In this document: positions 8,842 through 11,753 of the stretch, piece by piece | How the letters are laid out: every line of letters begins with the position of its first letter | Position numbering within the stretch: position 1 is the stretch's first letter | Source: a virus | Strand: one strand, 5' to 3' | DNA: 26,429 nt | IMG/VR virus record: IMGVR_UViG_3300027759_000372 | Span: 1 to 26,429 of that record | Made by a program: the position numbers and the translations under genes | Notes under the pieces: generated by a model | Databases searched by the model: none | Seen by the model: the letters and a program-made list of their open reading frames with translations, nothing else | What the model was told of the DNA's origin: nothing

Positions 8842-9546
8842 TTGAAATATAAATCAGTTCTAGTCATATCTGACCTACATATTCCATATCATCATCCTGA
8901 CGCATTTGCGTTTTTAAAAGCATTAAAGACTAAATACAAGTTTGACCATATAGTCAACATAGGTGATGAGCTAGACCAACACGCAATTTCTATGCATGAA
9001 CATAACCCAGACTTGCATTCTGCTGGACATGAATTAGAAGAGTCTAAAAAACACGTAAAAGAATTAGAAAAAATATTTCCTAAGATGGTATTAGTTCACT
9101 CTAACCATAGCTCTTTAGTTTATCGCAGAGCATTAAAGTATGGTATGCCTAAGGCTTATTTAAAGCACTACAACGAGTTTTTAGAGGTTGGGAAGGGTTG
9201 GGTATGGGTAGATGACCACACTATTACTTTATCTGATAATACTAGGTGTTTCTTTACACATGGTTTATCTGCTGACGTTCTTAAAGTAGCCCAAGCATAC
9301 GGTATGAATTCCGTCCAGGGTCACTATCACACAAAATTTTCTATCGGATATTACAGTAATCCAGATGCTCTTATTTGGGGTATGCAAGTTGGATGTTTAA
9401 TACATCAAAAGTCTATGGCATTTGACTATGCTAAAAACTTTAAAAGTCGTTTCATTGTAGGTTGTGGAGTTATTATTAACGGTCAACCAAAGCTAATGCC
9501 TATGGTATTAAAAGAGAATGGGCGTTGGAATGGTCATGTTTCTTAG
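8842..9546 (+). CDS. Calcineurin-like metallophosphoesterase
   Basis: 234 residues from a TTG start with a strong AGGAGA ribosome site at 8831-8836. The metal-binding motifs of the family are in order: D-x-H in SDLHIP (Asp11, His13), GDELD (Asp42), N-H in HSNHSS (Asn88, His89), His140 in FFTHG, and G-H-x-H in GHYHTK (His161, His163). The core of a calcineurin-like phosphoesterase is thus complete. Phage relatives are variously described as nucleases or phosphatases. Substrate cannot be told. It comes after the lysis genes, near the end of the late operon. Confidence 0.82.
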   Translation: MKYKSVLVISDLHIPYHHPDAFAFLKALKTKYKFDHIVNIGDELDQHAISMHEHNPDLHSAGHELEESKKHVKELEKIFPKMVLVHSNHSSLVYRRALKYGMPKAYLKHYNEFLEVGKGWVWVDDHTITLSDNTRCFFTHGLSADVLKVAQAYGMNSVQGHYHTKFSIGYYSNPDALIWGMQVGCLIHQKSMAFDYAKNFKSRFIVGCGVIINGQPKLMPMVLKENGRWNGHVS

Positions 9547-10644: not shown

Positions 10645-10870
10645 GTGCCTCCGTTAGTTTCTTACTATCGTACTTAGATAATCCTTTATATTCTTCTACA
10701 GGTTCACCAGGAACTAATGGTGTTATCTTAATATGATGCGTTGTATTCTTTAAGTCGTTTAAATATGAAAGTTGATTAGGATGAAATGACCATAAATAAG
10801 ACTTCTTTAAGTCACCAGACCTAACATCAAACTCCTCATAAAGCCATGCTACAGGTTCTTTTTTAGCCAT
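10631..10870 (-). CDS. Hypothetical phage protein (EPVAWLYE type)
   Basis: 79 residues, starting in the TAATG overlap with the hydrolase gene. The opening KKEPVAWLYEEFD and the later PLVPGEPVEEYKGLS are recognisable features of a common small phage family of unknown function. It has no membrane segment, signal or catalytic motif. The nearest strong ribosome site lies 14 bases upstream, so translation probably depends on coupling to the preceding gene. Confidence 0.55.
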   Translation of the reverse strand: MAKKEPVAWLYEEFDVRSGDLKKSYLWSFHPNQLSYLNDLKNTTHHIKITPLVPGEPVEEYKGLSKYDSKKLTEAHGGL

Positions 10871-11253
10871 TAGTAAAAATACATCCTTCCTATGTGTTTT
10901 GTTTTTTGTTTACCAAACCATGCTTTCTTTGGCGGTATTGAGTCATCATGGAAATATAAAGCATTTGCAACTGGATTTGCATATTTATTATGAACAATCG
11001 TATCAATAACCAAAAGTTTAGTTTCCAAATACGCCCTAGCATTAACTTCTGGATGACTTTCATCCGTAACCCCAATAAACTGACCATTAGCATAAACAAC
11101 AGAGCATACATCACGACCCCAAAAACCACTACGAACCCTATTACGTATGACATTTATAACACCTACCTTTTCTTCTAGTGTTCTTGTATTAACTTCATGG
11201 TACACAGCAGTTGCATAACACGCTATATCTAATTCTAAGTTATGTATATCCAT
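10870..11253 (-). CDS. SleB-type cell-wall hydrolase
   Basis: 127 residues. The sequence YATAVYHEVNTRTLEEKVGV, followed by INVIRNRV and VCSVVYANGQFIG, fits the Hydrolase_2/SleB family of peptidoglycan lytic transglycosylases, with Glu20 in HEVN as the probable catalytic acid. There is no signal peptide. It is the first gene of the - operon, divergent from pqqA, and separate from the holin/lysozyme cassette. It may serve local wall opening rather than bulk lysis. An AAAGG ribosome site precedes the ATG. Confidence 0.78.
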   Translation of the reverse strand: MDIHNLELDIACYATAVYHEVNTRTLEEKVGVINVIRNRVRSGFWGRDVCSVVYANGQFIGVTDESHPEVNARAYLETKLLVIDTIVHNKYANPVANALYFHDDSIPPKKAWFGKQKTKHIGRMYFY

Positions 11254-11356
11254 TATAAACCTTTCATGCTTTTCTGGTGTCTAGCAAATCCACATAAGCG
11301 TATAATTCTATTATATTGTGCAATTAAGCATAATATATTACTTAAGGATAAATACC
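11254..11356. promoter_or_regulatory. Divergent promoter region between SleB-type gene and pqqA
   Basis: This AT-rich 103-base gap separates two divergent transcription units. On the + strand a perfect TATAAT lies at 11301-11306 and a CATAAT at 11329-11334, but no good -35 is seen at the usual distance. On the - strand TATAAT occurs at 11315-11310, also with a weak -35. The pqqA ribosome site AAGGA is at 11344-11348, eight bases before the start. Weak -35 elements suggest an activator or a phage-modified polymerase. Confidence 0.4.
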
Positions 11357-11428
11357 ATGTGGACAACTCCAGCAGCTACAGAAATGCGTTTTGGCTTTGA
11401 AGTAACTATGTACGTAATGAACAAATAG
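11357..11428 (+). CDS. pqqA: PqqA, coenzyme PQQ precursor peptide
   Basis: A 23-residue peptide starting MWTTPAATE and ending FEVTMYVMNK. Glu15 and Tyr19, the two residues joined and turned into PQQ, sit at exactly the canonical positions within the family core G-x-E-V-T-x-Y. The N-terminal M-W-x-x-P-A is also typical. Length and both key residues argue for a working substrate. In known pathways PqqD binds PqqA, the radical-SAM enzyme PqqE makes the Glu-Tyr link, and PqqB, F/G and C finish the cofactor, which serves methanol and other quinoprotein dehydrogenases. None of those genes is here, so the host must supply them. A ribosome site (AAGGA) and a dedicated terminator flank the gene. Raised PQQ supply during infection is inference. 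Confidence 0.92.
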   Translation: MWTTPAATEMRFGFEVTMYVMNK

Positions 11429-11443
11429 TTTATACTATTTAAC

Positions 11444-11476
11444 GGTGACAGCGTTCTTCAGAAAATCGTTATCGCC
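11444..11476 (+). other. Hairpin in the pqqA 3' untranslated region
   Basis: Bases 11444-11453 pair with 11467-11476 as a ten-position stem with one mismatch and two G-U pairs, around a 13-base loop. It lies between the pqqA stop and the terminator. It has no T-tract of its own. It could stabilise the short pqqA mRNA. No known RNA family was recognised. Confidence 0.5.
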
Positions 11477-11483
11477 AATAATT

Positions 11484-11510
11484 AAGGGGACTGAAAATGT
11501 CCCCTTTTTA
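11484..11510. terminator. Bidirectional intrinsic terminator between pqqA and the recombination operon
   Basis: A perfect 8-bp stem (11484-11491 AAGGGGAC with 11499-11506 GTCCCCTT) encloses a 7-base loop and runs into a T-tract on the + strand. On the - strand the same stem is followed by TTAATTATT. It would end pqqA transcription rightwards and the recombination operon leftwards. Confidence 0.88.
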
Positions 11511-11753
11511 TTAGAATGGCACATCCTCATCTGAACCTTCAACAGCAGGTCCACTTCTTACTTCCCCTTGAGTTTCTTTTAGTTGCACAGAGCCACTAAT
11601 AAACTTACCATTCTTACCTTCTCTAATCCAGCCACTAATTCTAAATTCAATACCATCTACATTAGCAGTACCTGTATAGTCAGGTCTTTTAGGATTGTCA
11701 CCTTTATCATTTTTAAACAATGTAAACGTGTTTGTGTTATCGTACTCAGCCAT
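11511..11753 (-). CDS. SSB-like small protein with acidic DEDVPF tail
   Basis: 80 residues after a GGAG ribosome site. The core (residues 5-60) looks like a small beta-barrel (NTFTLFKNDKGDN, then YTGTANVDGIEFRISGWI), similar to DUF736-type or OB-like phage proteins. The C-terminus SDEDVPF closely resembles the DDDIPF tip by which bacterial SSB recruits partner proteins. It is the last gene of a recombination operon with an ERF annealer and an exonuclease, where an ssDNA-binding protein is expected. At 80 residues it is shorter than normal SSB, so a DUF736-like protein with an SSB-type tail is the alternative. Confidence 0.55.
   Translation of the reverse strand: MAEYDNTNTFTLFKNDKGDNPKRPDYTGTANVDGIEFRISGWIREGKNGKFISGSVQLKETQGEVRSGPAVEGSDEDVPF

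Follow-up and report, generated by a model that had tools for sequence, protein, structure and literature searches.

The cofactor PQQ is made from a short peptide, PqqA, whose glutamate and tyrosine become PQQ; replacing the Glu by Asp or the Tyr by Phe abolishes PQQ, and PqqA expression lies ~20-fold above that of PqqC/PqqE (reviewed in PMC2294125). The chemistry performed on PqqA by PqqE has also been described (PMC5715301). Methylophilaceae hosts possess 3-12 pqqA copies and a single pqqBCDE (PMC4109929), the five pqqA copies of a methylotrophic PQQ producer differ in expression (PMC9851590), and in other bacteria overexpression of pqqA, alone or with few partners, gave a modest rise in PQQ (PMC7936290). 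OM43 bacteria depend on XoxF, and xoxF is their most abundant transcript (PMC5120137). A growth medium used for OM43 includes 1 nM PQQ (PMC9004378). Phage PqqA in a virus of methylotrophs is already known, with one earlier report found in the open-licence PMC literature: Lake Baikal VP_266 is a large T4-like virus with PqqA, methanol dehydrogenase and a predicted Methylophilaceae host, for which an aid to methanol oxidation was proposed (PMC7678222). In addition, pqqA is listed, with no detail given, among virus-encoded genes of reservoir sediments (PMC13188868). The window described here (the whole stretch of DNA analysed, 26,429 bases, a 26.4-kb linear IMG/VR fragment) resembles VP_266 in having a phage-encoded PqqA and a predicted Methylophilaceae host, and differs from it in representing a podovirus-like phage of small size in which pqqA stands alone. 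What is new is the much wider occurrence of phage pqqA, including in small phages and isolates.

The pqqA frame of the window consists of 23 codons followed by TAG, a length inside the ~22-39 residue range of PqqA (PMC2294125). It scored above the curated cut-offs of both family profiles, with 40.3 bits (E 3e-10; cut-off 21.1) against PF08042 and 38.8 bits (E 5.6e-10; cut-off 20) against TIGR02107; a score below the family threshold had been named beforehand as telling against PqqA. A six-frame search of the whole record returned this frame as the sole PqqA match, and the same search returned none in 14 control genomes. No PHROGs family and no PDB sequence matched the peptide. The sequence-only reading had called a PqqA precursor here, and its coordinates, strand, W2/P5 start and G13-E15-V16-T17-Y19 core were all right, every one of these seven residues being present. 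Taken with the conservation described below, these results strongly support a genuine PqqA.

Comparison with host alleles, which the same reading had proposed, showed that the window peptide equals host Methylophilaceae PqqA residue for residue. The best 80 PqqA matches among 84,980 prokaryote genomes came from named Methylophilaceae or from unresolved beta/gammaproteobacterial MAGs, and most of these 80 had the identical peptide encoded by many synonymous DNA versions. Phage and host loci together held 126 distinct DNA versions of the same 23 residues, six exact versions being common to phage and host. The 22 host genomes in which copies were counted had 1-12 pqqA each, in agreement with PMC4109929; twelve matches are scattered on the one chromosome of Methylotenera mobilis 13 (G029). 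One Methylophilaceae genome has PqqD, PqqC and a PqqA identical to that of the window, the actual host of the window phage being a matter of prediction.

The record encodes a terminase large subunit, portal, major head protein, scaffold, Erf, RecE-like exonuclease, ssb, endolysins and replication genes. Host contamination was considered and is ruled out by the phage hallmark genes around pqqA and by the presence of pqqA in sequenced isolates. By protein comparison the closest relative is the environmental podovirus ctXG6705, and the portal, head and replication genes of the window are common to ctXG6705 and the OM43 phage Venkman. This gives a link to a Methylophilaceae host that is independent of pqqA. 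A calcineurin-like metallophosphoesterase (8842-9546) is 76% identical to that of the OM43 phage MEP301. The Methylophilaceae host named by the sequence-only reading is strongly supported as a prediction, the peptide being that of host PqqA and the genuine phages with a match being methylophages or ctXG6705.

The coordinates of the locus are given in Table 1. The window pqqA is antisense to both of its neighbours, a lysis gene and ssb, and for this reason needs a promoter of its own. When the 53 distinct regions upstream of pqqA in window-type relatives were aligned, nearly all showed a Shine-Dalgarno-like sequence and most had TATAAT. Two alternative 5' leader types between the TATAAT box and the start codon (window 11307-11349) alternate among relatives, and the window leader contains the near-palindrome ATATTGTGC/GCATAATAT. 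The 3' stretch holding the hairpin and terminator folds far better than shuffled sequences (z -4.33). With promoter, Shine-Dalgarno sequence, reading frame, hairpin and terminator, the window pqqA looks like a complete monocistronic unit.

Table 1. Predicted features of the pqqA locus, in window coordinates
Feature	Position	Strand	Basis or remark
Weak -35-like TGTCTA, 17-nt spacer to -10	11278-11283	+	Same upstream alignment as -10 box
-10 box TATAAT	11301-11306	+	Conserved in most of the window-type relatives (53 distinct upstream regions aligned)
Shine-Dalgarno TAAGGA, ATG 8 nt downstream	11343-11348	+	Upstream alignment
pqqA, 23-residue PQQ precursor peptide MWTTPAATEMRFGFEVTMYVMNK	11357-11428	+	Profile matches and conservation
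3' hairpin (element A)	11444-11476	+	Folding; holds 18-base sequence GCGTTCTTCAGAAAATCG at 11451-11468
Intrinsic terminator closing the pqqA transcript	11484-11506	+	Terminator/folding analysis
Flanking lysis gene (PHROG endolysin; transglycosylase-like)	10870-11253	-	Points away from pqqA
Flanking single-strand DNA binding protein gene	11511-11753	-	ssb-exonuclease-Erf operon

Relatives were recruited by the neighbouring lysis protein only, with pqqA not looked at, which left 74 loci with enough upstream sequence, and pqqA was found in the same gap in all 74. Their 37 distinct pqqA DNA versions gave pS 0.42, pN 0.053 and dN/dS 0.088, with amino-acid changes falling mainly in residues 4-8 (chiefly 4, 6 and 7), and we conclude from these alignments that phage pqqA is under strong purifying selection at the protein level. 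Loss of Glu15 or Tyr19 in close phage relatives had been named beforehand as telling against PqqA; both residues were invariant in 37 of the 37 versions, even in MWTTPSVTEIRLGMEITAYVFNR. A chance open reading frame is ruled out by the profile scores, the retention in every one of these loci and the low dN/dS.

When 50,697 phage records were searched at the protein level, PqqA turned up in P19250A (100%), ctXG6705, MEP301, Venkman, MEP401, MEP402 and the four records of Melnitz. No other genuine phage in that set had a match, so that all those with one were methylophages or the environmental podovirus ctXG6705. Nine isolate records, from five sequenced lineages, thus contain an unannotated pqqA (P19250A, Venkman, MEP301, MEP401, MEP402 and Melnitz x4). 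GenBank has no annotation of pqqA at these sites, and an antisense hypothetical gene stands there instead in ctXG6705 and Melnitz. P19250A has been said to lack methanol-oxidation genes of this kind (PMC7678222), a statement that is wrong as regards pqqA. The methylophage tally does not include MEP431-434, EXVC038S and HIM624-A, and we therefore make no claim of universality among methylophages. Matches in 'Acinetobacter phage MD-2021a' (CAKLQF020000010.1, locus L009, and CAKLQH020000055.1) were rejected as phage evidence; in these records, which are probably misfiled, pqqBCD and a radical SAM gene come after pqqA, and the DNA has the look of a bacterial chromosome.

A scan of IMG/VR gave at least 589 PqqA-encoding stretches in several unrelated contexts. 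Single-linkage by any gene family shared within 2.5 kb divided 87 loci into 7 groups (the check for phage genes covered all groups except L053). The neighbours of pqqA vary between lysis/recombination genes, the major head protein and the terminase large subunit, and the gene is antisense to them in 47 of 79 loci. In two phage relatives of another type (L417, L432) the pqqA frame seems to be gone, with a possible ATG-TAA remnant just upstream of a retained 3' RNA element (element B, below), and secondary loss is possible. Since these two seem to have lost it, pqqA would not be indispensable. In L401 and L406 the stretch between pqqA and element B seems to have gained an inserted reading frame whose AP2-like repeat is of the sort present in homing endonucleases.

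We searched the window, up to 28 pqqA-bearing IMG/VR records and six pqqA-carrying phage genomes (Melnitz-1 and five small phages) with profiles for PqqE, PqqD, PqqC and methanol dehydrogenase. PqqC, PqqD and PqqE were found in none of the window record, the 28 further records and the six phage genomes. The claim that the phage record holds no further pqq gene therefore stands for these three proteins. The host genome G030 was positive for PqqC, PqqD and methanol dehydrogenase in the same searches, and the PqqE run, made without G030, had positive controls in all 14 genomes. One large contig (G013; IMG/VR 3300025120_009955, loci L506, L509 and L510) encodes methanol dehydrogenase, a SoxYZ protein, a formate-dehydrogenase-like molybdopterin oxidoreductase, GroEL and CsgG on one strand near pqqA; ClpS is also encoded in this region (~27-43 kb). 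The methanol dehydrogenase raised the suspicion of host DNA, which was dropped given a phage-type ribonucleotide reductase, an exonuclease and a tail-fibre-like protein. We accept G013, on its gene content, as a putative large phage contig pairing pqqA with methanol dehydrogenase, as in VP_266 (PMC7678222).

Our data suggest that pqqA was captured from Methylophilaceae hosts and that the extra substrate peptide quite probably feeds host PqqD/PqqE, sustaining methanol oxidation during infection. This supply of substrate is the best explanation because the hosts rely on XoxF, a PQQ-dependent enzyme, and have 1-12 copies of pqqA. During infection the phage would transcribe pqqA as a short monocistronic mRNA, its peptide would bind host PqqD, host PqqE would cross-link Glu15 to Tyr19, and the remaining host Pqq enzymes would complete PQQ. 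As one PqqA is used per PQQ, the phage would supply the component that is consumed stoichiometrically and not the reusable enzymes. With more PQQ, XoxF/MxaF methanol dehydrogenase would stay charged as host transcription falls off, and the charged enzyme would provide energy and carbon for phage production. Expression, processing by host enzymes, a rise in PQQ and an effect on phage yield would all be expected. The phages would repeat in miniature the strategy of their hosts, in which pqqA is multiplied and the enzymes are not. The recurrence of the gene suggests that cofactor supply may limit the infected cell; the several pqqA copies already present in the hosts count against such a limitation by PqqA, as does the modest gain in PQQ from pqqA overexpression in other bacteria (PMC7936290).

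Phages often use small inhibitors, and the peptide could be a decoy or regulator that, made in excess, ties up PqqD/PqqE or a peptidase and thereby changes the PQQ or the peptide turnover of the host. That it stands alone, with PqqC, PqqD and PqqE not found in the searched phage records, fits such a role, but a decoy should have diverged or lost its reactive residues, and the phage peptide is still the same as host PqqA throughout, E15/Y19 and the leader included; the pairing with methanol dehydrogenase in G013 likewise fits support and not inhibition, and we regard a decoy as very improbable. Slightly less probable again is that the gene rides along as a passenger at the level of DNA, retained as host homology for recombination or integration, with a reading frame that is incidental. 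The exact DNA versions common to phage and host would agree with this, and the many host copies could be targets, but selection acts on the protein across many synonymous versions, the gene has its own promoter, Shine-Dalgarno sequence and terminator, and the DNA flanking it is phage-specific.

Alternatively, the transcript might matter mainly as RNA, with pqqA carrying 3' structured RNAs that act as small RNAs or message stabilizers. The 18-base sequence of element A is identical in P19250A and others; of 28 newly fetched IMG/VR loci, 27 have it 17-34 nt 3' of pqqA, and the remaining one (L501) resembles coding sequence. The strong fold of the window 3' stretch points the same way. Element B, which is not in the window, is an 85-90-nt pseudoknotted RNA 20-220 nt 3' of pqqA in L046, L048, L058, L062, L075, L076, L220, L391 and ~70 other loci. 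Across 12 distinct sequences 99% of cells pair, against 32-46% in slid controls, a percentage biased by the structure having been drawn from the same 12 sequences; the double-sided changes, seen at 12 of 21 pairs, are free of this bias. Compensatory changes occur in three helices overall, with four double-sided pairs in the crossing helix that forms the pseudoknot. A motif search made without use of pqqA returned 102 stretches, and 71 of the 80 fetched lay directly 3' of pqqA. Neither element was found on the host side: 22 host genomes gave only two chance-like 2-mismatch matches to element A, and a model search of these genomes and 80 host loci gave no element B. Rfam had no credible match for the 3' regions of phage pqqA, element B included. 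Against a role mainly as RNA stand the strong purifying selection on the peptide, the absence of element A from most window-type relatives, the many phage pqqA genes with neither element and the occurrence of element B apart from pqqA, and we consider it improbable. A broader proposal, which we put forward as doubtful though less so than these alternatives, is that pqqA is near-core in methylophages of several unrelated families, a repeatedly gained mobile mini-cassette because PQQ substrate is a general infection bottleneck in methanol-dependent hosts, and that its transcript has a dual function, hairpin A and pseudoknot B governing how stable or how productive the pqqA message is.

If substrate supply to host PqqD/PqqE is the role of the gene, phages of an abundant group of methanol oxidizers would act on C1 metabolism by way of a substrate peptide of 23 residues that ordinary annotation has missed. 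Statements in print that phages of this kind have no methanol-oxidation genes would then need correction, and methylophages could be picked out of metagenomes with pqqA as a marker of the host. It would also suggest that a ribosomally made precursor of the cofactor is in short supply in infected cells. Cultured pairs (OM43 H5P1 with Venkman/Melnitz, FZCC0133 with MEP401, LD28 with P19250A) make the role directly testable.

The window peptide is the same 23 residues as the PqqA of Methylotenera, Methylophilus, Ca. Methylopumilus and OM43, and many host copies are, like the phage gene, stand-alone short genes followed by an intrinsic terminator. Unlike them, the window pqqA is part of a phage genome, where lysis and recombination genes flank it, has a phage-specific 3' hairpin and has no PqqC, PqqD or PqqE found on its record. 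Venkman, MEP301, MEP401/402, Melnitz, P19250A and ctXG6705 have the same gene, but unannotated or overlaid by an antisense hypothetical. The auxiliary metabolic genes of marine phages (psbA, phoH, mazG) are likewise host-derived and kept by phages of one host group, whereas pqqA supplies the consumed ribosomal substrate of a cofactor pathway and not an enzyme or photosystem protein.
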